Positions 2,519 to 12,706 of a stretch of 20,163 nt of DNA are shown here, piece by piece. The notes under the pieces are model-generated. The model searched no databases and was not told the origin of the DNA. It saw only the letters and a program-made list of their open reading frames with translations. The DNA comes from a virus. Position numbers and translations under genes: made by a program. The stretch lies in the IMG/VR virus record IMGVR_UViG_3300001683_000073, positions 1,349 through 21,511 of that record; one strand, 5' to 3'. Position 1 is the stretch's first letter. Each line of letters begins with the position of its first letter.

Positions 2519-2617
2519 TTAAACACAGTCCTCACACTTTTCATCTATACATACAGGGTTATGTTTGCCATCTCTTGTTGGGTGTTTCGAGTGCCTTCTT
2601 CGTATGGTTCTGGTCAT
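2519..2617 (-). CDS. 32-aa basic Cys/His microprotein
   Basis: An Arg/His/Lys-rich N-terminal half (MTRTIRRRHSKHPTR) is followed by VCIDEKCEDCV, so three Cys lie near the C-terminus. The start is joined to the previous stop as TAATG. It could be a nucleic-acid-binding knuckle. The support is operon structure and cysteine content. Confidence 0.5.
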   Translation of the reverse strand: MTRTIRRRHSKHPTRDGKHNPVCIDEKCEDCV

Positions 2618-2727
2618 TATCTTTTGATTAACTTCCAGGAATTAATGATATAATAGTGCATAAAACAACAGTAGACATATTCTTTCTCACATATCTTACA
2701 AAATATTAATGGTCCCTTATCCATCAT
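2617..2727 (-). CDS. 36-aa Cys/His zinc microprotein
   Basis: The protein contains FCKICEKEYVYCCFMHYY (about residues 9-26), a C-x2-C knuckle followed by CC and His, similar to a compact treble-clef or C2H2 variant. Two tandem ATG codons are available (2725-2727 and 2722-2724); the first makes an ATGA overlap with the membrane-protein gene upstream and is preferred. The C-terminal part is a basic helix (SWKLIKR). Confidence 0.55.
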   Translation of the reverse strand: MMDKGPLIFCKICEKEYVYCCFMHYYIINSWKLIKR

Positions 2728-2936
2728 ACCAACACCACAATACCCATAGCTATCACAGCACCTATTAGAGTCGCTATCACATCATCAACCTCTGGTGTTC
2801 CTCTACCTGACAAGTCATAAAACTCTTTACCAAATCCAAATATAAATCCCAACAATACAAGTGGTAGCCAAAAGACACCAAGCATTGATAGAGAGAATCC
2901 TGCTATAAAATGGAGTATCTTATCATTCTGAATCAT
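2724..2936 (-). CDS. Small membrane protein, 70 aa, YfiM/VanZ-like signature
   Basis: The N-terminal NDKILHFIAGFSLS runs into two hydrophobic segments (about residues 8-36), then a loop GKEFYDLSGRGTPEVDD and a final hydrophobic helix (about 53-70). The combination DK..HF.AG, KE..D and D..A...G resembles the small DUF2279/YfiM and VanZ-like membrane families. It lies directly after the terminase-associated gene in a virus genome, where holins or membrane-active proteins also occur. The gene overlaps its upstream neighbour by 14 nt. The family likeness is by eye only. Confidence 0.6.
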   Translation of the reverse strand: MIQNDKILHFIAGFSLSMLGVFWLPLVLLGFIFGFGKEFYDLSGRGTPEVDDVIATLIGAVIAMGIVVLV

Positions 2937-3180
2937 CTAGTATCTCATTGATTACAGAAGTTGGTATGTTGTCTAGGTCCTTAATCACTATCTTAATCTT
3001 ATCTATTTTACCCTCTAGTTCCTTGTATAAAGTGTAACCATTGTTAATATCATTGACACTCTTAACATACTCTGAATAAGTATTGGCAAATAATATGGAT
3101 AATGACATCTTACTGTTTCTTCCTATTGTCTTACCTGTTGCTTTAATGATAAACTGTTGCACTCTATCTTCATCATTCAT
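2923..3180 (-). CDS. Hypothetical protein, 85 aa, downstream of terL
   Basis: A mostly helical protein with an N-terminal VQQFIIKATGKTIGR segment and a long charged C-terminal helix ending LDDSE. Its start overlaps the end of terL by 8 nt and its end overlaps the membrane-protein gene by 14 nt, so it belongs to the packaging operon. No motif points to a function. Confidence 0.6.
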   Translation of the reverse strand: MNDEDRVQQFIIKATGKTIGRNSKMSLSILFANTYSEYVKSVNDINNGYTLYKELEGKIDKIKIVIKDLDNIPTSVINEILDDSE

Positions 3181-4606
3181 AGGATTCAGTATTCATTATT
3201 ACACTCTTTGATTTATGTGTATCTTCATCATCTCCATATACCAATTTGTTATTCATCACATCATAATGTCCATAGTCAAACTCCTTTAGGTCCCAACAAC
3301 ACATGATGAAACAATCTCCAATATCAAAGTTTAGTTCTGATTTATCTATGCCACCTTTGATGTCAAATTGTGCGGCTCTTAACTGTGAGATTAGTTTTGT
3401 ATGTGATGGGTGAATCCTTACCTTGCCATTCTTTACCATCTGGGCGGCATTGATAGCCATCTTACTTCTTAGGCTTTGAATGTTTGCAGATTCATGGTCC
3501 CTGATTTGTAAGCCAAAGTTGATTGGTAGAGCTGGTATTCCTCTCGTTTCAAGGTCTCTAATAAATCCTGGGTGAGCCGAGTCGATTTTGCAGTTATCGT
3601 TGTATCTGTGTGCCATATCTTCCATAACATCAAGCATAGCAGATGGACTTGGTCTTGGGAATTCATTGGCTTCGGTGATATAGAGGAGTCCATCTCTTAT
3701 CTCTCCACCTAGTACACCAAAGTTTGATGAGCCAAATGCTGGGTCGCCATAACAGCCACCTCTCCCACCAATAACTTGTAGGTCGTATTCTGTGATGATA
3801 TTTTCAAGGTTCTCAAACACATCTCCTGTGCCAAAACCATACTTTAAGTTGTATTCTCTTTCAAATGATGGTGATTTCTTAGCTGTCTCTATATCCTCTG
3901 GTCTGAATACTTTGTTTACTCCTATGGTATAATCCATCTGCTTCATTACATAGCCATTATCTGTCTCACTTTCCATTCTCTCAAATAGTCCACCAGGAAG
4001 ATTAGGTGTACTGATTAACAATATGTGTGGGTTAGTCTTTGGAATGTATCTTTCTGCTACGGTCCTAGCTTCATCTTGATACCTGTTTGGGAAGAAATCG
4101 GCTTCATCTAACATGACTACCTTTGGATTCAACCCTCTTGCAGGGGATAAGTGGTTAGTAGGAAATGCCTCTATTCTACAACCGTTTAATATCACTACTG
4201 ATTCTTTGGTCTTAAACTCTGAATTAAACAATGATTTCATTCTACCTACCACCTTATTCGTTAGGTCTTGGTTGGCACCTGTGATTATTACTGCTGATAC
4301 ATCTACCTGTGTATCTCTCCACTTATCATCTTTGAGACAGTTCCAGGCTATCCATCTAATGGTCCATTCTGTAATGCCTAAGCCTGTTGCCTTCTTAATC
4401 CATAGTTTTTTATTATTCTCTAGGATAGATGTTAATTCCTCCTCATAGTCAAAGTATTCTAATTTGTTTGGTAGTGCTTCCCAAAACTCCTTAAATGATA
4501 ACCCTCTATACTGTGGGAAATTAATAGATATATCATCTTCTTCTGCTGGTAATAATTGTCTTAATTTTATTACATTGTCGTGAAATGCTATCTCCTCAGT
4601 TGCCAA
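3173..4606 (-). CDS. terL: Terminase large subunit (DNA-packaging ATPase/nuclease)
   Basis: This is the motor that pumps viral DNA through the portal and cuts it to length. The N-terminal ATPase has a Walker A-like loop KKATGLGITEW (residues 71-81), a strong Walker B VVMLDEAD (163-170) and a coupling motif LLISTPN (196-202). The C-terminal RNase H-like nuclease shows CYGDPAFGSSN (285-295, acid D288) and KIDSAHPG (340-347, D342), with further acids near DIGDCF. At 477 residues it has the usual length. The canonical GKT/S of Walker A is replaced by G-L-G-I-T, with Lys only upstream. Such deviant P-loops are known in terminases. A likely small subunit lies immediately upstream, overlapping by a few bases. 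Confidence 0.93.
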   Translation of the reverse strand: MATEEIAFHDNVIKLRQLLPAEEDDISINFPQYRGLSFKEFWEALPNKLEYFDYEEELTSILENNKKLWIKKATGLGITEWTIRWIAWNCLKDDKWRDTQVDVSAVIITGANQDLTNKVVGRMKSLFNSEFKTKESVVILNGCRIEAFPTNHLSPARGLNPKVVMLDEADFFPNRYQDEARTVAERYIPKTNPHILLISTPNLPGGLFERMESETDNGYVMKQMDYTIGVNKVFRPEDIETAKKSPSFEREYNLKYGFGTGDVFENLENIITEYDLQVIGGRGGCYGDPAFGSSNFGVLGGEIRDGLLYITEANEFPRPSPSAMLDVMEDMAHRYNDNCKIDSAHPGFIRDLETRGIPALPINFGLQIRDHESANIQSLRSKMAINAAQMVKNGKVRIHPSHTKLISQLRAAQFDIKGGIDKSELNFDIGDCFIMCCWDLKEFDYGHYDVMNNKLVYGDDEDTHKSKSVIMNTESYE

Positions 4607-4847
4607 GATACACCTTTGGCTGTTCGAGTTTTCTCTCTGCTACTTTTCTTAAATGAGATATTCCCAATACCAAATCGACTACATTAGACTTTTGATGAGT
4701 TGCCTTAATCAATCTGTCTATATATGATAATACCATAACATGATTATTATCGTTCATTTCTTTAATTATATTAGTCTCACATAGTTTAATGATTCTCTCT
4801 AATCTTCTTCCATCATTATTCAAGTTAGTCCAATGATTCTTTACCAT
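4596..4847 (-). CDS. Small all-helical protein, candidate terminase small subunit
   Basis: From ATG 4847 the protein has 83 residues; a TTG at 4854-4856 would add MRN. It appears entirely helical, with an N-terminal WTNLNNDGRRLERIIKLCE and a long C-terminal charged helix (SHLRKVAERKLEQ). Its 3' end overlaps the terL start by 11 nt. Small, helical DNA-recognition subunits (TerS) usually sit in exactly this place. No helix-turn-helix can be defined with confidence, so the role rests mainly on context. A weak TATA-like TACTTATT lies at 4878-4885. Confidence 0.5.
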   Translation of the reverse strand: MVKNHWTNLNNDGRRLERIIKLCETNIIKEMNDNNHVMVLSYIDRLIKATHQKSNVVDLVLGISHLRKVAERKLEQPKVYLGN

Positions 4848-4886
4848 ATTTCTCAATTTTCATTCGTAATCATGAGTAATAAGTAA

Positions 4887-4900
4887 TTAATAAAAAAATC
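4887..4900 (-). terminator. Poly-T terminator after the 39-aa gene
   Basis: Seven consecutive T on the minus strand (4892-4898) follow directly after the TAG stop of the 39-residue gene, and are followed by TATTAATTA. Archaeal termination needs only such U-runs. It may separate the 50/39-residue transcript from the terminase operon. Confidence 0.4.
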
Positions 4901-5020
4901 CTACTTGTGTAGGGATTCCCAATAGGGTCTAACTGTTTCAAAGTATGCCTGTGCTGATAGTTTCCATGTATTATAGACACCATCACATAATTCAAAGTAT
5001 GCTTTATCTGTTGTAACCAT
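4901..5020 (-). CDS. 39-aa aromatic-rich hypothetical protein
   Basis: The frame begins MVTTDKAYFELCDGVYNTWK and continues with repeated aromatic/acidic residues (AYFETVRPYWESLHK). It could form one long amphipathic helix. The start ATG (5018-5020) lies 24 nt after the zinc protein's stop. The T-run after its stop supports it as the end of a short transcript. Function is unknown. Confidence 0.5.
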   Translation of the reverse strand: MVTTDKAYFELCDGVYNTWKLSAQAYFETVRPYWESLHK

Positions 5021-5044
5021 ACATTACCACTCAGAACCAACTAT

Positions 5045-5197
5045 TTATGTTTTTACCCACTCTACTACCCCTTCTACTTTATGTCTACTCTGAAATGCAC
5101 ATCTGATATGAAATCTTTCATGTGTTCTTTTTACTACACCTAATAGTGTATTATACTTCTCATTAAACTGCATACCACATAAACTACACTCTATCAT
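5045..5197 (-). CDS. 50-aa C2H2-like zinc-finger protein
   Basis: ECSLC (residues 3-7) supplies a C-x2-C pair and THERFH (25-30) an H-x4-H pair, 17 residues after the second Cys. This resembles an enlarged C2H2 finger with F11 as core residue. A basic tail with Cys33 and His39 follows (IRCAFQSRHK). The ATG at 5195-5197 follows an AT-rich stretch (TATTATTATAATAA) that may hold its promoter, downstream of the poly-T terminator of the secreted-protein gene. Confidence 0.55.
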   Translation of the reverse strand: MIECSLCGMQFNEKYNTLLGVVKRTHERFHIRCAFQSRHKVEGVVEWVKT

Positions 5198-5234
5198 GAC
5201 TCTTTTATTATAATAATATTGATAAGTGTTACTA

Positions 5235-5253
5235 GAAAAAAGAAAAAAAGGGA
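5235..5253 (-). terminator. Poly-T terminator after the secreted-protein gene
   Basis: On the minus strand the DNA after the 316-residue gene's stop reads CCCTTTTTTTCTTTTTTCTAG, two T-runs of 7 and 6. There is no hairpin, as expected for an intrinsic archaeal terminator. Confidence 0.55.
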
Positions 5254-6204
5254 TTAATCCCTGTGGTTTTGATAGAAATTATTACTCTCTATCAGTTCTC
5301 TTGCTATTGGTTCTGCAATATTAGCCTGTACTTGTTTGTCATGTAGTGTAGCTATTTTGTTGCCATAGTCTTGCATGAAGAATGTGTACTCCTCTAGTAT
5401 TGGTGAGTAGTGACTTATGAAGCCATTATTTTTTTCTAAATAATACCCATCATACTCTATTGGTTCACAACCCATGAGTGTTTTGTATTGTTGTGGGTAT
5501 GCGTGACTATTACATATTACACTAATGTCTACTGTTCTGTCAGACTTTGTGTATTGTGCGAATGGTATGGCACTTACACCTTCCAATGACTCCAAGTGTT
5601 GAAAGTTACCTGCTCTGTTTGCATCTTCAAAGTGTTTGTACATAACAGTTAAGGTTTGGTTTTCAAGTGTATGCTGTGCTTTACACTCCTCTATTGCCAT
5701 TACAAGTTCACCTAACTGTCCTACTACCTGAACATTTGTGACTTCCCAATGATTCCATTCAGATATTACAAAGGTTCTCTCCTCTTGTATTGCTGAGGAA
5801 TTACCTAATCCCTGTTGGCACTCGTCAAGAGTTCTTAACATCTGTAATAATACTGCGTCTTGTGTTATCATTGTTCCCTTTACTAACTTTGATTCAAGTT
5901 TTAGTATTGTCTTTTCATCTTTAGTTAGTTCTGGAGTAACTTCTACTACTATTGGAGCAGTTAGCCTGGCTAATTCTTCTTCATAGGCTTCTGAGCTAAT
6001 AGAATCTTTGAATGATTCCAATTCTTCAATGGTCATTGGCTCGATTTCTCCTTGCCATGTACATTGATAGGTGGTTTCAGATTCTAACCAGCATGACATT
6101 CCATGATAATCAAATGGAACCTGTACTATTGCAGTTTCACCGTATGCAATTCCAGCACCTGTTATAAATAAGGCAGCTAAAACTGCTATGATTGTTTTCG
6201 TCAT
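5254..6204 (-). CDS. Secreted or virion-surface protein with signal peptide, 316 aa
   Basis: The N-terminus MTKTIIAVLAALFITGAGIA is a clear Sec-type signal peptide (Lys, hydrophobic core, likely cleavage near AYG-ET around residues 22-24). The rest is soluble, Glu/Thr-rich, with a helical middle containing several Cys (ECQQGL, ECKAQH) and a C-terminal part with CNSHAYPQQYKTLMGCEP that could carry disulfides. The pattern resembles predicted secreted proteins of marine thaumarchaea and could be host-derived. It is led by its own TATA box (6227-6234, 23 nt before the ATG) and closed by a T-run, so it is a monocistronic unit next to the metalloprotease. It could act at the host envelope or on the virion. 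The function is unknown. Confidence 0.65.
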   Translation of the reverse strand: MTKTIIAVLAALFITGAGIAYGETAIVQVPFDYHGMSCWLESETTYQCTWQGEIEPMTIEELESFKDSISSEAYEEELARLTAPIVVEVTPELTKDEKTILKLESKLVKGTMITQDAVLLQMLRTLDECQQGLGNSSAIQEERTFVISEWNHWEVTNVQVVGQLGELVMAIEECKAQHTLENQTLTVMYKHFEDANRAGNFQHLESLEGVSAIPFAQYTKSDRTVDISVICNSHAYPQQYKTLMGCEPIEYDGYYLEKNNGFISHYSPILEEYTFFMQDYGNKIATLHDKQVQANIAEPIARELIESNNFYQNHRD

Positions 6205-6223
6205 TAAATGAGTGAATTCTAAC

Positions 6224-6234
6224 TATAATATAAA
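6224..6234 (-). promoter_or_regulatory. TATA-box promoter of the secreted-protein gene
   Basis: The minus strand reads TTTATATT at 6227-6234 in the context AATTTATATTATAG. It ends 23 nt from the ATG at 6204, matching the spacing at 1826 and 10891. A leaderless transcript is likely. Confidence 0.6.
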
Positions 6235-6459
6235 TTAATCTTGTATTCGTGGGAATGATACTGCTATCATGTCAGCATAATCTCTCAACCAACCCACCTC
6301 TATTACCTGTTCACCATGACTTTCATGACTTGCTATAGCGTCATATAATGTTCTAGTGATAGCTTTGGTTACTATATCCCACACCTCATCTTCTGTGAAT
6401 GTTCTTATCGTCTTATCCTGCGTTTTAGCCACCTCTTTAGTATAATATAATGATTCCAA
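6235..6459 (-). CDS. Hypothetical protein, up to 74 aa
   Basis: The frame is open from TTG at 6457-6459; GTG at 6432 or 6384 are alternative starts, the last avoiding most overlap with the protease gene. The C-terminal part FTEDEVWDIVTKAITRTLYD is helical and acidic, and no motif is recognised. It ends just before the promoter of the secreted-protein gene and is probably translated from the protease transcript. The start is unsure. Confidence 0.5.
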   Translation of the reverse strand: MESLYYTKEVAKTQDKTIRTFTEDEVWDIVTKAITRTLYDAIASHESHGEQVIEVGWLRDYADMIAVSFPRIQD

Positions 6460-7100
6460 TGTTTGAATACTCTTACTCCATATTTCAATCTGATTCTGTA
6501 TATGTCCCTCTCTGATAGGTCTAAGGTTGTTCCCTTGTAATACGGGTCCATCACATCTACACTATTTCCATCTGTGTCATGTCTGAGTCCTAACGTATGA
6601 CCTAACTCATGGATAAGTACATGGTGAATGTTGTAAGTTTTCAATATATTATCTGGATTAGCGTTCTCAACTAGACCTTTTTCTATTGCTTTATCTCCTC
6701 TTATACCCTTACCTTTTAGGTCCCAGATGTAATCTGCACAGAATACTACCTTGCCTGAATAACTTCCTTGTCCAGGTAGATATGCGTATGCTAGTACACT
6801 TGGTCTCTCCTTTAGATACTCATCATTCTTTCTTCTGGCAAAATGAATTATAATATCTGGTTGATGATACTCTTTAGCCATCCATACAGGTCTATACTTT
6901 ACTGGCACTTCTAAATCCCATGTTGTCATTGATAGATTTACAGCTCGTCTTAACTCCTTCTCTGTGATTAGTTTTAATGTATCATGCCATATTACATCAT
7001 ACCATAGTGTGTCTTTATTCCATTTATGTTGCCATTCTTCTTGCTCAATAAACTCTACTTGTTTCAATATACTAGAGTATGCGATACAGATAGGCTTCAT
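6405..7100 (-). CDS. Matrixin-type zinc metalloprotease (M10-like), 231 aa
   Basis: The zinc signature HELGHTLGLRH (residues 164-174) matches HExxHxxGxxH, and the Met-turn DVMDP follows at 182-186, so this is a metzincin, closest to matrixins. An upstream part with LRRAVNLSMTTWD and DIIIHFARR (about 50-90) matches the matrixin catalytic fold. No signal peptide is seen, so it would be released by lysis, carried in the virion or exported another way. A very basic tail (ILKRWLKRRIRR) ends the protein. The gene follows a holin-like membrane protein and precedes a secreted protein. An envelope- or S-layer-degrading role in exit or entry is inferred. Confidence 0.85.
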   Translation of the reverse strand: MKPICIAYSSILKQVEFIEQEEWQHKWNKDTLWYDVIWHDTLKLITEKELRRAVNLSMTTWDLEVPVKYRPVWMAKEYHQPDIIIHFARRKNDEYLKERPSVLAYAYLPGQGSYSGKVVFCADYIWDLKGKGIRGDKAIEKGLVENANPDNILKTYNIHHVLIHELGHTLGLRHDTDGNSVDVMDPYYKGTTLDLSERDIYRIRLKYGVRVFKHWNHYIILKRWLKRRIRR

Positions 7101-7134
7101 AATAAAAATAAAAAATTAGCACTAAAGAGAAAGT
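7101..7134 (-). other. T-rich spacer between the holin-like gene and the protease gene
   Basis: On the minus strand the spacer reads TTTCTCTTTAGTGCTAATTTTTTATTTTTATT directly before the protease ATG (7098-7100). The T-runs could give partial termination after the 56-residue gene. No TATA box sits at the usual distance, so the protease probably depends on read-through from 7326. Confidence 0.3.
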
Positions 7135-7305
7135 TTAGGCTTTGTTGTCGTTTTTGTGTTTAGCATAATCTGCTGTGATTATTGCACCGAGTGCGACAAA
7201 AACTGCTGTGGTGACTTCTGGAGATACTTTATCAAGAATCCAACCGAGTGCGGTCAATCCTGTCAAAGCTCCTAAGCCATAGTATCTGAGATTTCCGTTA
7301 GACAT
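7135..7305 (-). CDS. Holin-like small membrane protein, 56 aa
   Basis: The protein has two hydrophobic segments: about residues 8-24 (YYGLGALTGLTALGWIL) and 31-46 (VTTAVFVALGAIITAD), joined by a short turn DKVSPE, and a charged C-terminal tail (YAKHKNDNKA). This two-helix, short-loop, charged-tail plan is that of phage holins. It has its own TATA box (7326-7333) and lies directly before the metalloprotease, which resembles a holin-lysin pair. Codons such as CTC and GTC are used more here than in its neighbours. The holin role is inferred from topology and context. Confidence 0.6.
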   Translation of the reverse strand: MSNGNLRYYGLGALTGLTALGWILDKVSPEVTTAVFVALGAIITADYAKHKNDNKA

Positions 7306-7325
7306 AATTCAAAATTAATTGATGA

Positions 7326-7333
7326 GTATAAAA
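7326..7333 (-). promoter_or_regulatory. TATA-box promoter of the holin-like gene
   Basis: TTTTATAC on the minus strand lies 21 nt before the ATG at 7305, in the short gap after the 319-residue gene. It would drive the holin-like and protease genes together. Confidence 0.5.
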
Positions 7334-7335
7334 CA

Positions 7336-8295
7336 CTATTGATTGTATTTGATTCTTGGAATGTTTATTGATAGGTCCTTACATTCCCTGTATAAATTGA
7401 TATTATGGTTCATTAATTGAGCTATATCTGTGAGACATTTTGGACAGCTTCTTAGGTATAGTGGATATGTACTCTCTTTTTCAAAAAATGCCCTAATTTT
7501 TGGCTCTCTGAGGATGCCTATGCTGCCATATTTCTCTGAATAGTCCATGAGTTGTGCCACTCTGGCAATAGTTTCACCTACTTCAATATTGAAACAGGCT
7601 ACAATTTTTTCATATTCACCGAAATCTCTCCTTAAATCTATCATACCCTTACTGTTCTCTATACTTGCCCAGTCCTTAGCGTATTGTTCTAGCTTACCTT
7701 CAACATCTCCTAACTCTTTATCTATTATACCTTGAATTTCATCTGATTCATTGTATCTATTCTTGAGTGTCTCTAGTGTTAGGTGAAATTTGTTTGCTAA
7801 TTTACTCATGGCTGTTAAATATGTGAATTGCCTGGTGTCCTTTGGTTCTAATCTGAATGTTTCTTCTGCCTGGGTTTCCTGTTTCTTCTTTACTTCTTTG
7901 GCTCTCTGTTCTACACCATTAATTTTAATGTCATTGTATTGATTCTTTTCAATGGTTAAAGATGGGTCATTAGTCTCAATAGGTTGCCAATCATCTTCTT
8001 CTAATTGCGACAAGGTGTCGTTTTTTAAATAGTTCTGTTTGTAAATGTCTGGAAGATTTCTTTGTATAGTTCTGGCACTAATTACTATACCTTCTTTGTC
8101 GAGTTGGCTATATAAGTATGATGAAATTCCTGACACTTTCATATCAAGCATATTACTCTCAATTTGATTTCTAATTATCTCACCACATTTTGCAACATAA
8201 TCTCCAAGTGTATATTTTTCCCACTTGTCATAATCATTTTTAAATTCTGTTAATGTTTTTCTCCATTGTTTAAATAGAAAATCAACATCTGACAC
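7336..8295 (-). CDS. Helix-turn-helix/coiled-coil protein, 319 aa, candidate regulator
   Basis: An in-frame TAA nine bases upstream leaves GTG at 8293-8295 as the start. Residues 30-90 contain ISSYLYSQLDKEGIVISART followed by IQRNLPDIYK, which reads like a helix-turn-helix with a recognition helix near SARTIQRNLP. A low-complexity Glu/Lys/Gln linker follows (about 100-150), then long helices (about 155-270) and a C-terminal CPKC pair (287-290) with a further Cys near residue 306. It is divergent from the only plus-strand gene across an 80-bp region, the arrangement of a regulator pair. Its own TATA-like CTTTATTAG lies 24 nt upstream. A replication or packaging role cannot be excluded. Confidence 0.6.
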   Translation of the reverse strand: MSDVDFLFKQWRKTLTEFKNDYDKWEKYTLGDYVAKCGEIIRNQIESNMLDMKVSGISSYLYSQLDKEGIVISARTIQRNLPDIYKQNYLKNDTLSQLEEDDWQPIETNDPSLTIEKNQYNDIKINGVEQRAKEVKKKQETQAEETFRLEPKDTRQFTYLTAMSKLANKFHLTLETLKNRYNESDEIQGIIDKELGDVEGKLEQYAKDWASIENSKGMIDLRRDFGEYEKIVACFNIEVGETIARVAQLMDYSEKYGSIGILREPKIRAFFEKESTYPLYLRSCPKCLTDIAQLMNHNINLYRECKDLSINIPRIKYNQ

Positions 8296-8374
8296 AACAA
8301 TTTAACAAAATAGTAACTAATAAAGTTTATTCGTAAATGTTAAATACGATTACGTCTTATAAATAAAGTGAATA
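8296..8374. promoter_or_regulatory. Divergent promoter region
   Basis: This is the only place where transcription diverges. Toward the left, TTTATTAG (8318-8325, minus strand) sits about 24 nt before the GTG at 8295. Toward the right, TTAAATAC (8340-8347) lies 28 nt before the ATG at 8375. A second, stronger TATA-like TTATAAAT (8357-8364) is only 11 nt before that ATG, too close for a normal leaderless start. TTACGTCT at 8350-8357 resembles the repeated element at 1873-1913. Confidence 0.5.
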
Positions 8375-8491
8375 ATGTCTCAAATATTCACAGTACACGA
8401 TGAGGAAAAGTGTATAAATTGCAAAGAACCACTTGTTGAAATGCAAGTTGGTAGATTCACTTGTTCTAGTTGTGGTGCCAATGAAGATTAA
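8375..8491 (+). CDS. 38-aa zinc ribbon, the only plus-strand gene
   Basis: The protein carries KCINCKEPL (residues 12-20) and FTCSSCGANED (28-38): two CxxC knuckles 13 residues apart, the geometry of TFB/TFIIB- and RpoM-type zinc ribbons. It is transcribed away from the helix-turn-helix gene and ends tail-to-tail with the 45-residue minus-strand gene (4-bp overlap at 8488-8491). The opposite orientation and the divergent promoter suggest a separately timed, perhaps early, regulator. It could bind the host transcription machinery, but that is only an inference from fold and position. Confidence 0.65.
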   Translation: MSQIFTVHDEEKCINCKEPLVEMQVGRFTCSSCGANED

Positions 8492-8625
8492 TTATTAATT
8501 ATCCATTCTAATAATTCAATCTTTGATTTTAATTCTAAATATTGGCCATAATCTTTATGTTTATAGAAAAAATGAGCTGTCTTAAAATCATGTAATAAAA
8601 TTTTTAAATCTTTTTCAGATAACAT
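8488..8625 (-). CDS. 45-aa helical protein
   Basis: The frame starts at ATG 8623-8625 with MLSEKDLKILLHDFKTAHFF and ends in IELLEWIINN; it could form two helices. It is the last gene of the modification operon. Its start codon abuts the right-hand side of a 12-bp inverted repeat in the transcript, so its translation may be controlled by that structure. No family is recognised. Confidence 0.5.
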   Translation of the reverse strand: MLSEKDLKILLHDFKTAHFFYKHKDYGQYLELKSKIELLEWIINN

Positions 8626-8693
8626 AATCAGGGTACATAGTTCGGAACATGACTAATCATGATTGCTCTCCGTTTTACCTATACCCTGATTAT
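8624..8693. repeat. 12-bp perfect inverted repeat flanking a 46-nt loop
   Basis: ATAATCAGGGTA (8624-8635) and TACCCTGATTAT (8682-8693) are exact reverse complements. The loop holds the stop of the 34-residue gene and a 10-bp palindrome AATCATGATT (8655-8664). In the minus-strand transcript the second arm ends inside the ATG of the 45-residue gene, so pairing would bury that start. It might instead be a protein-binding site or RNA-processing signal. Confidence 0.55.
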
Positions 8694-8757
8694 CATGACA
8701 TTTACAACCACAGTTATCCTCATCATAGTGAGTTATTCGACATTTACTACAATTCAT
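8653..8757 (-). CDS. 34-aa Cys-rich microprotein
   Basis: The protein has NCSKC (residues 2-6) and NCGCKCHD (15-22), so five Cys and His21 are packed into 20 residues, which could bind one or two metal ions. The tail is polar. Its ATG overlaps the glycosyltransferase stop (ATGA, 8754-8757), which supports translation by coupling. Its function is unknown. It may assist or regulate the glycosyltransferase. Confidence 0.55.
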   Translation of the reverse strand: MNCSKCRITHYDEDNCGCKCHDNQGIGKTESNHD

Positions 8758-9632
8758 TTTTCTATAGTCACCAATTTCATGTTATAATCATTTATACCTC
8801 TCTCTATAATAATATTGTCTTTAAGTTTTAATTTTTGTCTATAACCATTATAGTTTACATGATGATGAGGTCTTCCAAACTTATATACTAATTTGGTTAC
8901 GTCTGGGTGCATATCTAATAACATCTTACTCTTTAGATAGGTACCTTCTTTACTGTAAAATTGTTCTGTATTACCACCTTTGATTTGTTGGGTCCCAACT
9001 TTATTCTGTAGGAAGGCATAGAATTGCACAGTACACCAATTATCTTTTAACATTCTTAATGACAAATCAGTATCTTCATTATATCTACCTCTCCATCTAT
9101 AAGGCATATTATTTCTAATTAGGTTGCATGAGTAGATTCTAGTATTCATACTGTACGGTGGTAGTTTAGTATTCTGACTAGCAAAAAATCTATAGTTTGG
9201 TCCTGCCATAGCAATATTACTATGTCTATCACAGAAATCTTCCATGGCTTTGAATATACTGGCACTCTTTATCATTAGTTTTTCATTTCTATTAAGTCTA
9301 GCAAAACCACCAATATTATCGTCCATTACCCAATGAGATTCATGACCATTTTCTATTGAATGGTCCCAAGCGAAATTTCTGGCTGCACCGGGACCTGTAA
9401 TTTTATTATCATCTTCCCAAAACATATCATAATCATCAAAATATTTCTGTGGCTGTACTAGAACAGTTCCATATCTCTTATCAGTTGCATTTTGATATTG
9501 TTTTAATTCATTTTCATTAACTATAATATAATAAGGACATTTCATTTCCTCTAATGACCTAGCTGTTAATCTAGTTGTTGGTTCATATCTGCCTTTAGAC
9601 ACTATATAAATTGGATATTTAGGTATCATCAT
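8754..9632 (-). CDS. TET-associated/GREB1-like DNA glycosyltransferase (TAGT family)
   Basis: The 292-residue protein follows the TAGT pattern throughout: N-terminal YPIYIVSKGRYEPTTRL, PGAARNFAWDHS (81-92), the DxD-like HWVMDDNIGGFAR (100-111), PYRWRGRYNEDTDLSLRMLK (177-196), KGGNTEQFY (218-226) and MHPDVTKLVYKFGRPHHHV (241-259). In phages these enzymes are proposed to transfer a sugar to hydroxymethylated DNA bases, together with TET/JBP or related oxygenases, to protect DNA from restriction. Neither a TET-like enzyme nor a hydroxymethylase is visible in the window, so the acceptor is open. It lies in an operon with the TSKTKSIWYP-motif protein, overlapping it by 14 nt. The family is recognised from memory of its motifs. 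Confidence 0.82.
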   Translation of the reverse strand: MMIPKYPIYIVSKGRYEPTTRLTARSLEEMKCPYYIIVNENELKQYQNATDKRYGTVLVQPQKYFDDYDMFWEDDNKITGPGAARNFAWDHSIENGHESHWVMDDNIGGFARLNRNEKLMIKSASIFKAMEDFCDRHSNIAMAGPNYRFFASQNTKLPPYSMNTRIYSCNLIRNNMPYRWRGRYNEDTDLSLRMLKDNWCTVQFYAFLQNKVGTQQIKGGNTEQFYSKEGTYLKSKMLLDMHPDVTKLVYKFGRPHHHVNYNGYRQKLKLKDNIIIERGINDYNMKLVTIEK

Positions 9633-9888
9633 CTAGCCATAGACTTAATGTATTATCTTTTCGTTTAGGTGGGTACCAAATTGATTTTGTCTTACTTGTT
9701 ATTCCTTGTTGAATTTTTAATTTGAATAAATCTACGGCTTCTTGAGATTCAAAAGATATTATAATTTTTCTAAATGCGTCATTCTTTTCATTGACAAATT
9801 CTGGCATATCTTCCCAATCACCAGCTTCTGGGTCTTTCTCTACTTCATCAAAAAGTTTATCCTGTGACGTTAAATTATATTCACTCAT
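9619..9888 (-). CDS. Phage-type small protein with C-terminal TSKTKSIWYP motif, 89 aa
   Basis: The protein has an acidic N-terminus, WEDMPEF at residues 25-31, a predicted beta-alpha unit IIISFESQEAVDLFKLKI (42-59) and the distinctive end GITSKTKSIWYPPKR (62-76). Small proteins with this WxDMPEF/TxKTxSxWYP layout occur in many phages and are often found near TAGT glycosyltransferases or ParB-like proteins. Their biochemical role is not established to my knowledge. It overlaps the glycosyltransferase gene by 14 nt, so the two are probably made together and may act together. Confidence 0.7.
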   Translation of the reverse strand: MSEYNLTSQDKLFDEVEKDPEAGDWEDMPEFVNEKNDAFRKIIISFESQEAVDLFKLKIQQGITSKTKSIWYPPKRKDNTLSLWLDDDT

Positions 9889-10138
9889 CTTTAATCAATC
9901 CTAGATATTTTGATTCCATAGGTCCTTCGATTAATTCTTTCATATTCAATATCATATCTATGATAACTGAATCCTTACCTGTCATTTGGTCTATCTGGTC
10001 CCAGGATATATTCATCTCTAATTGTATTTGGTGTCCTCTTACTTTGGTTGTGGCATAGGGAACAGCTTTAATCTTTAATGGTTCTCGGAGTCTTGATACA
10101 ATCTCTTTTGTCTCATGGAATGTGGTTTTTTCACTCAT
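9881..10138 (-). CDS. Hypothetical protein, 85 aa
   Basis: It begins MSEKTTFHETKEIVSRLREP and has a beta-rich middle (KVRGHQIQLEMNISWDQ) and a helical end (IIDMILNMKELIEGPM). The ATG overlaps the upstream stop (ATGA at 10135-10138) and its end overlaps the 89-residue gene by 8 nt. No family is recognised. Membership in the modification operon is the only functional hint. Confidence 0.6.
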   Translation of the reverse strand: MSEKTTFHETKEIVSRLREPLKIKAVPYATTKVRGHQIQLEMNISWDQIDQMTGKDSVIIDMILNMKELIEGPMESKYLGLIKDE

Positions 10139-10332
10139 AGTCCAACCTCTTTTAATTTTTTACTTATTGTCATTTGTTCTTCCTCAGGAATGAGAATAAA
10201 ATAAGGAATAAGTATATCATAACCTTTCTTGTAATCTGGTGTAATTGTTGGATTTTCTCTCCACTTCTTTTCCATTTCCTCTTTTTCTTTCATCTCTCTA
10301 ATGGCTCTATATTTCCAAGCGTCTCCTCTCAT
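10135..10332 (-). CDS. Hypothetical protein, 65 aa
   Basis: It has a strongly charged N-terminal helix (AIREMKEKEEMEKKWRENP) followed by PDYKKGYDILIPYFILIPEE and a C-terminal basic helix. It is coupled at both ends by ATGA overlaps. No family is recognised. It is probably a small cytoplasmic accessory protein. Confidence 0.58.
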   Translation of the reverse strand: MRGDAWKYRAIREMKEKEEMEKKWRENPTITPDYKKGYDILIPYFILIPEEEQMTISKKLKEVGL

Positions 10333-10550
10333 TCTAATAACAACTCCTTTCCAACTGATTTATTTGTTTCTGAAATCATTTTATCTATTTCACTTTTCAC
10401 ATAAGCTTCTCTATCACATCTGCTACAGCACTCTACACAGTAATCTATAGATTGTAAATCTTTTCCCATGCCATATTCATGGTCGCATATTTCCTCGCTC
10501 CCACAATTATCACAAAAAATATCATAATCATTCTCTCTTGGATTGTTCAT
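10329..10550 (-). CDS. 73-aa Cys-rich zinc protein
   Basis: The knuckle FCDNCGSEEICDHE (residues 12-25) and the cluster YCVECCSRC (37-45) give eight Cys plus His in the first 50 residues, enough for two zinc sites. The second half is a charged helix (VKSEIDKMISETNKSVGK). ATG at 10550 is chosen because it follows the previous stop by one base; a TTG at 10562 would add four residues and overlap. The stop overlaps the next start (ATGA). Confidence 0.68.
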   Translation of the reverse strand: MNNPRENDYDIFCDNCGSEEICDHEYGMGKDLQSIDYCVECCSRCDREAYVKSEIDKMISETNKSVGKELLLE

Positions 10551-10551
10551 T

Positions 10552-10707
10552 CTAACTACCAATAGTAATCAATCCCTTTATAATTTTATGACCGTTCTTA
10601 TTGACTTTGTTAGTATATGTCCAATTCTTTTTGAAGTGTCTTTCCATTGTAAAAACGCTGTTACAGGAGTAACCACATTCACAGTTTAGGAGTTTTATTG
10701 TAGTCAT
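10552..10707 (-). CDS. 51-aa C2H2-like zinc-finger protein
   Basis: The segment CECGYSCNSVFTMERHFKKN (residues 9-28) has Cys at 9, 11 and 15, Phe at 19 and His at 24, close to the core spacing of a C2H2 finger but with the last ligand uncertain (His40 or a Cys). A basic tail follows. The ATG at 10705-10707 overlaps the preceding stop (ATGA). Confidence 0.58.
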   Translation of the reverse strand: MTTIKLLNCECGYSCNSVFTMERHFKKNWTYTNKVNKNGHKIIKGLITIGS

Positions 10708-10868
10708 AATTGTTTACCTGTTGCTCTGCCATAGTAGAAAGATACCTCTTCAAAAGTTCTTACTTTCAATAAAGATTTTATTGCAAAATCAAATATCTCC
10801 TGACTTGCTTTTTCTTTCTTCAATTCTGTGAAGATATATTCAATGGTATGTAGTTGTGTTTTACTCAT
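10704..10868 (-). CDS. 54-aa helical protein, first gene of the modification operon
   Basis: It starts MSKTQLHTIEYIFTELKKEK and continues as amphipathic helices; no Cys is present. The ATG is 23 nt from the TATA box at 10891-10898, so it heads the operon that runs to the glycosyltransferase. The stop overlaps the zinc-finger gene (ATGA). Its function is unknown. Confidence 0.58.
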   Translation of the reverse strand: MSKTQLHTIEYIFTELKKEKASQEIFDFAIKSLLKVRTFEEVSFYYGRATGKQL

Positions 10869-10887
10869 ATCTAACTAGATTTTAATC

Positions 10888-12083: not shown

Positions 12084-12160
12084 TCATTACAAGTTGGTAA
12101 ACCTTCAACTAAAGATACTATTCTATTTGACGAAAAACAGACATGACATAATCCCTTCAT
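12059..12160 (-). CDS. 33-aa zinc-ribbon microprotein
   Basis: LCHVC (residues 4-8) and TCNDC (23-27) form two CxxC pairs separated by 15 residues, a minimal zinc ribbon with almost nothing else. The ATG overlaps the nuclease stop (ATGA at 12157-12160), and the 3' end overlaps the phosphoesterase start. It sits exactly between a nuclease and a phosphoesterase gene, so an adaptor role is possible but inferred. Confidence 0.65.
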   Translation of the reverse strand: MKGLCHVCFSSNRIVSLVEGLPTCNDCIPKKSS

Positions 12161-12594
12161 ACGAAGAATTCACCTGATTCTAACTTGGCTAAGTGTTTGC
12201 TGTATTCTTCCCAGGCTCTATATGTTACTAGAAATTCTGTCAGTTCATCTACTGTTATATTCTTTAACTCCATTATCTTTCTTAGGTCCTTAATTGATTC
12301 ATGATTGATTAGTATGTAATTTAATTTAAGTCTCTCAAAGTCTGCATTTCTTTTTATCGTCTTTTCTGTTGGCATTTCAAGTGAGCCATGAACTTTACCA
12401 TCTGACTCTAGGTATCTCTCCATCTTACCGTACTCAAATTTAACATCTATATTTCTCTCACCATATTTCTGATGAAATAATCCACTCTTAACGTTGACCT
12501 CTCTATGTACTCTGAATCCTGATTTTCTTAGAGTGTTGTGTATTAGGTCCTCTTTGTTCTTACCTGAAATAGAATGGTCTATTTTCTTATTCAT
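12157..12594 (-). CDS. PD-(D/E)XK nuclease-like protein (DUF559/VSR type), 145 aa
   Basis: Numbering from ATG 12594, the core contains ERNIDVKF (46-53), then RYLESDGKVHG (60-70), then KRNADFERLKLNYILIN (81-97). This is the acid - ExDGxxH - R..D..R...L...Y order of DUF559/VSR-like endonucleases, with D50, E63 and D65 as candidate metal ligands. An N-terminal helix GKNKEDLIHNTLRKSGF fits the fold. Such proteins can be nicking or homing-type enzymes, or repair or resolvase-like nucleases. A GTG at 12631-12633 would add 13 residues overlapping the previous zinc gene; the ATG, which follows a GAGG, is preferred. It lies between mcm and the phosphoesterase. Confidence 0.62.
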   Translation of the reverse strand: MNKKIDHSISGKNKEDLIHNTLRKSGFRVHREVNVKSGLFHQKYGERNIDVKFEYGKMERYLESDGKVHGSLEMPTEKTIKRNADFERLKLNYILINHESIKDLRKIMELKNITVDELTEFLVTYRAWEEYSKHLAKLESGEFFV

Positions 12595-12610
12595 TATTGA
12601 TTTGTTTCCT

Positions 12611-12706
12611 CTAGTCAAGTTCGTGGTCCTCACATAATTTTATACTTCTACTGTGTCTGGTTTCTAATTCTACCTTACATACTTTACATATAACTCTGTT
12701 TCTCAT
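12611..12706 (-). CDS. 31-aa zinc microprotein (CxxC ... CxxH)
   Basis: ICKVC (residues 6-10) is followed 14 residues later by LCEDH (24-28), giving a C-x2-C ... C-x2-H set of ligands. The ATG overlaps the preceding 28-residue gene's stop (ATGA at 12703-12706). It is basic (MRNRVICK, TRHSRSIK), consistent with nucleic-acid contact. Confidence 0.62.
   Translation of the reverse strand: MRNRVICKVCKVELETRHSRSIKLCEDHELD

Follow-up and report, generated by a model that had tools for sequence, protein, structure and literature searches.

The locus at 8482-9889 of the window probably constitutes an accessory, TET-independent DNA-glycosylation cassette of a thaumarchaeal tailed virus, in which a TAGT-family glycosyltransferase would act with an MPEF-domain protein as its partner to counter restriction. 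The window is the whole stretch of DNA that was analyzed (20,163 nucleotides), and sits within a 21.5-kb virus record (IMGVR_UViG_3300001683_000073). Well-understood DNA glycosylation requires a base that was hydroxylated beforehand; the pair described here is a widespread combination of glycosyltransferase and partner (at least 599 viral stretches and named bacterial genomes) in genomes without a known acceptor-making enzyme. If its substrate is DNA, then either an as yet unknown modified base is provided by the hosts or the reaction itself is a new one.

A complete TAGT-family glycosyltransferase

The open reading frame at 8754-9632 (minus strand) encodes a 292-residue protein, which the first-pass annotation of the sequence had credited with the full TAGT motif series. 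A profile search against the family bears this out: the protein matches Pfam TAGT (PF20691) with E=3.7e-43 and 148.3 bits (cut-off 27.5) across model positions 1-204 of 205, and phrog_842 among the PHROG profiles with E=1.9e-48. An alignment of 40 TAGT sequences that includes the window protein has 65 invariant columns, and the protein carries all of them. A DxD-like motif, HWVMDDN, lies at residue 100, with DDN as its invariant part, and RWRGRYNEDTD lies at residue 179, where RGRYNEDT is invariant. Relatives are encoded on the at least 599 IMG/VR stretches mentioned above, in 22 phage records (43-55% identity to the window protein) and at 20 loci in bacterial genomes and metagenome-assembled genomes, including Pantoea, Erwinia, Bartonella and Chryseobacterium. 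The scan of genome contigs returned bacteria and no archaea, and was made with exact peptide patterns that may miss archaeal copies.

A structure was modeled for a natural MPEF-TAGT fusion from the viral contig L049, a homologue of the window proteins. Mean pLDDT was 80, with values of at least 90 in 210 of 382 residues; the TAGT part was mostly above 90 and the MPEF part poorly predicted. The best matches in the PDB were the GT-A glycosyltransferases ColGalT1 and LARGE1 (E=8e-5 to 5e-4), followed by weaker matches to GalNAc-transferases and hyaluronan synthase (E >1e-3). The predicted fold of this homologue is that of a sugar transferase and is silent on which acceptor it uses, and in the model the resemblance to protein glycosyltransferases mirrors the GT-A fold in general. 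Together with the profile matches and the invariant columns, it identifies the window protein as a TAGT-family glycosyltransferase with a predicted GT-A fold.

MPEF, a near-obligate partner of TAGT

Directly upstream of TAGT, and overlapping its start by 14 bp, the reading frame at 9619-9888 (minus strand) encodes a stand-alone MPEF-domain protein of 89 residues. Taken alone, this protein matches no Pfam or PHROG family, and no relatives were found with it as the lone query; the domain was recognized through alignments of proteins neighboring TAGT. These give the pattern W..MPEF...(I/V)..F...(D/E)..F..L..Q.(I/L)T.KTKSIWFP, which in the window protein ends in TSKTKSIWYP, and W25, M28, P29, E30, F46, F55, W71 and P73 of the 89-residue protein are invariant or nearly so among 40 sequences. 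A model of MPEF (pLDDT 78, pTM 0.48) had no match in the PDB.

MPEF occurs in three architectures: as a stand-alone protein before TAGT, which is the arrangement in the window and is common elsewhere, at the C-terminus of ParB-like proteins, and N-terminal to a fused TAGT. The ParB-like assignment draws on PF02195, matched in 12 of 42 scanned proteins, on PHROG ParB-like families, matched in 24, and on an alignment profile that matches ParB/Spo0J in the PDB with E=4e-12. Fusions to the N-terminus of TAGT are found in phages Aeh1 and PTm1, in Vibrio phages 1.076.O and 1.124.O, and in several contigs.

The two proteins are seldom apart. Among the 77 TAGT loci that could be assessed, being those with an upstream gene, 76 carry MPEF, placed in the preceding gene at 68, in an overlapping frame at 1 and in a fusion at 7, and missing at 1. 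In the reverse direction, all 109 assessable loci found through MPEF carry a downstream TAGT, at a distance of no more than 35 bp in 89 cases, a count made with TAGT-only queries over loci that are not independent and with an MPEF query itself derived from TAGT neighbors. Loci L279 and L280 were rejected, as their matches to MPEF were false. Because the domains are both fused and co-occurring, it is very likely, as judged from sequence, that MPEF and TAGT are physical partners, and the partner that had been claimed upstream of TAGT is upheld by the reading frame itself, by the fusions elsewhere and by this near-obligate co-occurrence. The partnership offers a handle for biochemistry.

Several features of other loci deserve mention. 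At 17 of the 109 MPEF-TAGT loci (for example L174, L185, L194, L206, L210, L213, L223 and L227) an extra gene lies between the pair, and these genes match, for example, remote TAGT, group-1 or DXD glycosyltransferases, and FkbM or other methyltransferases, which suggests longer, methylated sugar chains. In many phages (for example L007, L012, L028 and L061) terminase genes directly follow the pair, and the genes downstream of TAGT loci match terminase models more often than any other Pfam family. In L034, the gene just upstream of a fused MPEF-TAGT (9638-10882) shows an apparent HxD...H pattern of 2OG-dioxygenases and is a candidate for such an enzyme; the 130-residue tail of its product has no Pfam match.

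The virus and its host

Among 50,697 phage records, the sole relative of the window terminase is that of the Nitrososphaera provirus Nvie-Pro1 (45% identity over 82%, E=6e-107), which is without TAGT. The MCM helicase matches PF00493 with E=2.2e-41, and all 16 of its matches in the phage collection are archaeal viruses. The earlier assignment to an archaeal virus is thereby borne out, and these genes support a tailed virus that would infect marine Nitrososphaerota (Thaumarchaeota), the ammonia-oxidizing archaea. Close terminase relatives were present at 34 IMG/VR loci. Three relatives are taken as complete genomes from their end repeats: G001 (34,857 bp, identical ends of 127 bp), G051 (127 bp) and G079 (123 bp). 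Since G001 alone passed the cut-off in an MCM search of 50 TAGT contigs, the TAGT-bearing archaeal viruses recognized here are the window record, G001 and G053.

An accessory cassette that turns over rapidly

Comparison with G051 delimits the cassette. By blastn, window positions 9890-10108 and 2565-8481 align to this complete genome, with flanks at 87-92% DNA identity, and the intervening 8482-9889 is absent as a clean gap. The two viruses are otherwise close, with TerL 98% and MCM 96% identical, and the terminase, MCM and a 319-residue protein together spanning 96-98%. That last protein, encoded at 7336-8295 (minus strand) on the border of the TAGT cassette, is conserved in most near relatives and has no assigned function. 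Missing from G051 are MPEF, TAGT and a reading frame of 45 codons at 8488-8625 (minus strand). In the presence/absence matrix of the clade this last frame is confined to TAGT-bearing members (43% identity in G001, 74% in G053); its product is without a PHROG match and its function is unassigned. A candidate cysteine-rich frame of 34 codons at 8653-8757 (minus strand), beginning MNCSKCRITHYDEDNCGCKC, was read by eye, and its ATG overlaps the TAGT stop codon. Promoter-like sites were as numerous as in shuffled sequence and were given no weight.

The content of the site varies among relatives. G053 carries the cassette at the same position, with TAGT only 55% and MPEF only 45% identical to the window proteins, though most shared core genes are 92-100% identical. 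In G079, beside the same gene for the 319-residue protein, a D12 adenine DNA methyltransferase (PF02086, E=2e-6) occupies the TAGT site. The TAGT allele of G053 falls in a different group of the tree from the window/G001 pair; independent acquisition of the two alleles was considered and set aside, since grouping them in one clade is compatible with the AU test (p=0.41). The clean gap in G051 and the divergence of the G053 allele argue for quick gain, loss or swapping of the locus, and such rapid turnover is expected of an anti-restriction trait.

It is very improbable that the cassette is passive, phage-derived cargo without function in the archaeal virus. Such a history would fit its patchy distribution in the clade, where just G001 and G053 share it with the window record, and the missing ParB part. 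Yet the invariant residues are intact, the reading frames of MPEF and TAGT overlap, and TAGT, MPEF and the 45-codon frame have been kept together in three divergent members. TAGT moreover appears to be under purifying selection, with pN 0.12 against pS 0.71 between the window and G001, a ratio that is rough as dS is saturated.

DNA-modification cassettes in sister viruses

Sister viruses carry other modification genes, and ParB_N is found beside them. In G052, near the terminase, an N6/N4 DNA methyltransferase begins with ParB_N. G058 combines a ParB_N-like protein with a SAM methyltransferase, a PP-loop enzyme and a C5 DNA methylase, again near the terminase. In the sister virus IMGVR_UViG_3300022933_000013 (L127, 9563-12555), ParB_N, a SAM methyltransferase, an asparagine-synthase/QueC-like PP-loop enzyme and a C5 cytosine DNA methylase make up a cluster that may represent a new cytosine modification pathway. 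Both G060 and G061 hold, near the terminase, a ParB_N-like protein with a TET/JBP dioxygenase (PF12851, 55 bits, cut-off 34.9), to which the cluster adds a protein that by eye resembles GT-B glycosyltransferases and a PIG-L de-N-acetylase. At 852-3820 of L128 (IMGVR_UViG_3300031688_000052), and in the same way in G061 (IMGVR_UViG_3300031689_000057), genes for a ParB_N-like protein, the TET/JBP dioxygenase (PF12851, E=6.1e-15), the GT-B-like protein and a PIG-L GlcNAc de-N-acetylase follow one another, an order that suggests a DNA base being hydroxylated, given an amino sugar and then deacetylated. G082 has a ParB-like protein, a frameshifted TET/JBP frame and a remote TAGT-like protein; the related thaumarchaeal contig IMGVR_UViG_3300002231_000664 (L120, 4181-6331) has a ParB-like protein, a TET/JBP gene split by a frameshift and a remote TAGT-like glycosyltransferase of 238 residues.

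Because sister viruses hold ParB_N with methyltransferase or TET/JBP cassettes, DNA modification is a recurrent trait of this clade, with ParB_N as its recurrent companion. Viruses of ammonia-oxidizing archaea exchange DNA-modification cassettes, among them a glycosyltransferase, adenine, cytosine and ParB-fused methyltransferases, and TET/JBP, and this exchange points to strong restriction pressure in their hosts. The TET/JBP clusters with glycosyltransferases share a family name (TET-associated) with the window TAGT, but they lie at a different genomic site from the TAGT locus, and both the window and G001 are without TET/JBP.

The substrate of the pair

DNA as the substrate is suggested by the TAGT family, by the fusion of MPEF to ParB-like proteins, by the DNA adenine methyltransferase that takes the place of the cassette in G079, and by the DNA-methyltransferase and TET cassettes of the sister viruses. 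Of the base hypermodification first proposed for this virus, the TAGT family, the archaeal virus and the partner protein stood, while DNA as the substrate became a likelihood drawn from context.

The pair could instead glycosylate a protein of the capsid or tail, or else a glycan or S-layer protein on the host surface, for receptor masking or superinfection exclusion, which we consider unlikely while giving it real weight. It would agree with the nearest solved folds, which are protein O-glycosyltransferases, with the group-1 and DXD glycosyltransferases and FkbM methyltransferases of glycan-pathway type that some phage cassettes insert between MPEF and TAGT, and with the lack of any encoded enzyme known to make an acceptor base. 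Against it stand the one characterized member of PF20691, which works on DNA (PMC13216743), and the DNA adenine methyltransferase that alternates at the site in this clade. In addition, MPEF occurs joined to ParB_N, a domain that sister viruses otherwise pair with DNA methyltransferases, and in phages the cassette adjoins replication, recombination and terminase genes. Also counted against DNA glycosylation are the distance of that sole characterized enzyme, which acts on a base-borne sugar, and the lack of a ParB-like protein to supply DNA binding in the window virus: no ParB_N match was shown in the window or G001, and 89 residues are too short to include this domain.

The acceptor base

No member of the TET/JBP, thymidylate-synthase-type or DNA-methyltransferase families was present in G001 or the window among the 25 of 29 matching Pfam families listed, in a scan that took nearly all open reading frames of at least 60 residues. 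Nor did a reading by eye of the list of frames of the complete G001 reveal an acceptor-making enzyme. The statement that the window contains no oxidizing enzyme is therefore correct and extends to G001, on which the wider search proposed for TET/JBP and thymidylate-synthase-like genes was run with no such gene found. TET/JBP was found in none of 50 TAGT contigs by a search that does detect it in G060 and G061. A thymidylate-synthase-type match was present in 1 of 20 longer viral contigs searched, G001 being among the 20 and having no match to PF00303. Vibrio phages 1.076.O and 1.124.O had no match to a thymidylate-synthase-type enzyme, and the large phages Aeh1 and PTm1 carry genes of the thymidylate-synthase family. 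With TET at 0 of 50 and thymidylate-synthase-type enzymes nearly absent from the longer contigs, these viruses appear to make no known acceptor. The acceptor must then, as far as gene content tells, come from something other than a recognizable viral TET or hydroxymethylase, and would be host-made, the product of an unrecognized viral enzyme, or an unmodified base.

The closest biochemical precedent is the beta-glucosyl-HMC-alpha-glucosyltransferase of phage T6, a characterized PF20691 member with a reported GT-A fold that adds glucose to already glucosylated hydroxymethylcytosine (PMC13216743). It belongs to the same Pfam family as the window protein and shares its fold, which in the window is predicted, but it scores only 38 bits against PF20691, shows no similarity to the window enzyme by BLAST and lacks MPEF. 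The T6 gene adjoins a thymidylate-synthase-like gene, presumably the dCMP hydroxymethylase, and the phage makes its own hydroxymethylcytosine. When G001 and the window were tested for a T-even glucosyl-hydroxymethylcytosine system, no thymidylate-synthase-type hydroxymethylase was present among the families listed. Since the T6 enzyme is very distant, adds sugar onto sugar and belongs to a phage that supplies its own modified base, glycosylation of an oxidized base is only one of several options for the window virus.

One of these options is that TAGT elongates, as in T6, a sugar or other group placed on a base by the host or by an unrecognized viral enzyme, so that the cassette would upgrade an existing modification. 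We regard this as improbable: no first glycosyltransferase was found in G001 or the window, and at its distance the T6 enzyme gives no basis for assigning its substrate to the window protein. No sugar-bearing bases are known in thaumarchaeal hosts. In favor of elongation, the T6 activity is established (PMC13216743), and remote TAGT-like and other glycosyltransferases accompany TAGT in some cassettes. DNA phosphorothioation and multiple restriction systems are reported in marine Thaumarchaeota (by the title of a work cited in PMC6563490), so host-modified DNA exists. A second option, somewhat more plausible and still doubtful, is that MPEF and TAGT form, in this archaeal virus as well as across many phages, a self-sufficient system that glycosylates DNA without a viral oxidase or hydroxymethylase, onto an unmodified base or a host-made modification. 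If true, glycosylated DNA would be reached here by a new route.

Proposed function and comparison with known systems

For DNA glycosylation by the cassette, which we favor, the following sequence of events is proposed. TAGT would act as a nucleotide-sugar-dependent GT-A glycosyltransferase, and MPEF as its dedicated subunit. As phage MPEF is fused to TAGT or forms the tail of a ParB-like protein, its most likely role would be to place TAGT on viral DNA, directly or via a ParB-like protein. After replication, the pair would add a sugar to a base or base adduct of the viral DNA, and this bulky group would block host restriction nucleases. The use of DNA as substrate, the transfer of a sugar to it, DNA targeting by MPEF and protection as the purpose are all inferred.

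The phage proteins nearest to the window TAGT, which belong to the main PF20691 group, are those of Aeh1 (an Aeromonas phage; NP_943971), Vibrio phages 1.076.O and 1.124.O, and PTm1 (a Tenacibaculum phage). They are 50-55% identical to it over 97-99% and have the same motifs, but they are borne by bacteriophages and fused to MPEF, whereas the archaeal virus encodes MPEF separately. These cultured phages make the question of the acceptor testable. A survey of 753 phage genomes found 288 with TAGT and without alpha- or beta-glucosyltransferase, and suggested novel transferases (PMC13216743, NAR 2026). TAGT is a known family, and hypermodification of DNA has a precedent among archaeal viruses: halovirus HVTV-1 carries dPreQ1 in its DNA, with about 30% of G replaced (PMC6884629), through 7-deazaguanine chemistry rather than glycosylation. 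Literature searches, whose reach did not include the foundational 2013 TAGT paper, returned no paper that describes either TAGT or TET/JBP from viruses of Thaumarchaeota, and none that describes MPEF.

Two other genes of the window may be noted. The frame at 12157-12633 (minus strand) encodes a protein of 158 residues with no assigned function, and that at 6405-7100 (minus strand) encodes a matrixin-like metallopeptidase (Peptidase_M10, best E=4e-24 among the window and G001 frames) that is conserved across the thaumarchaeal virus clade.
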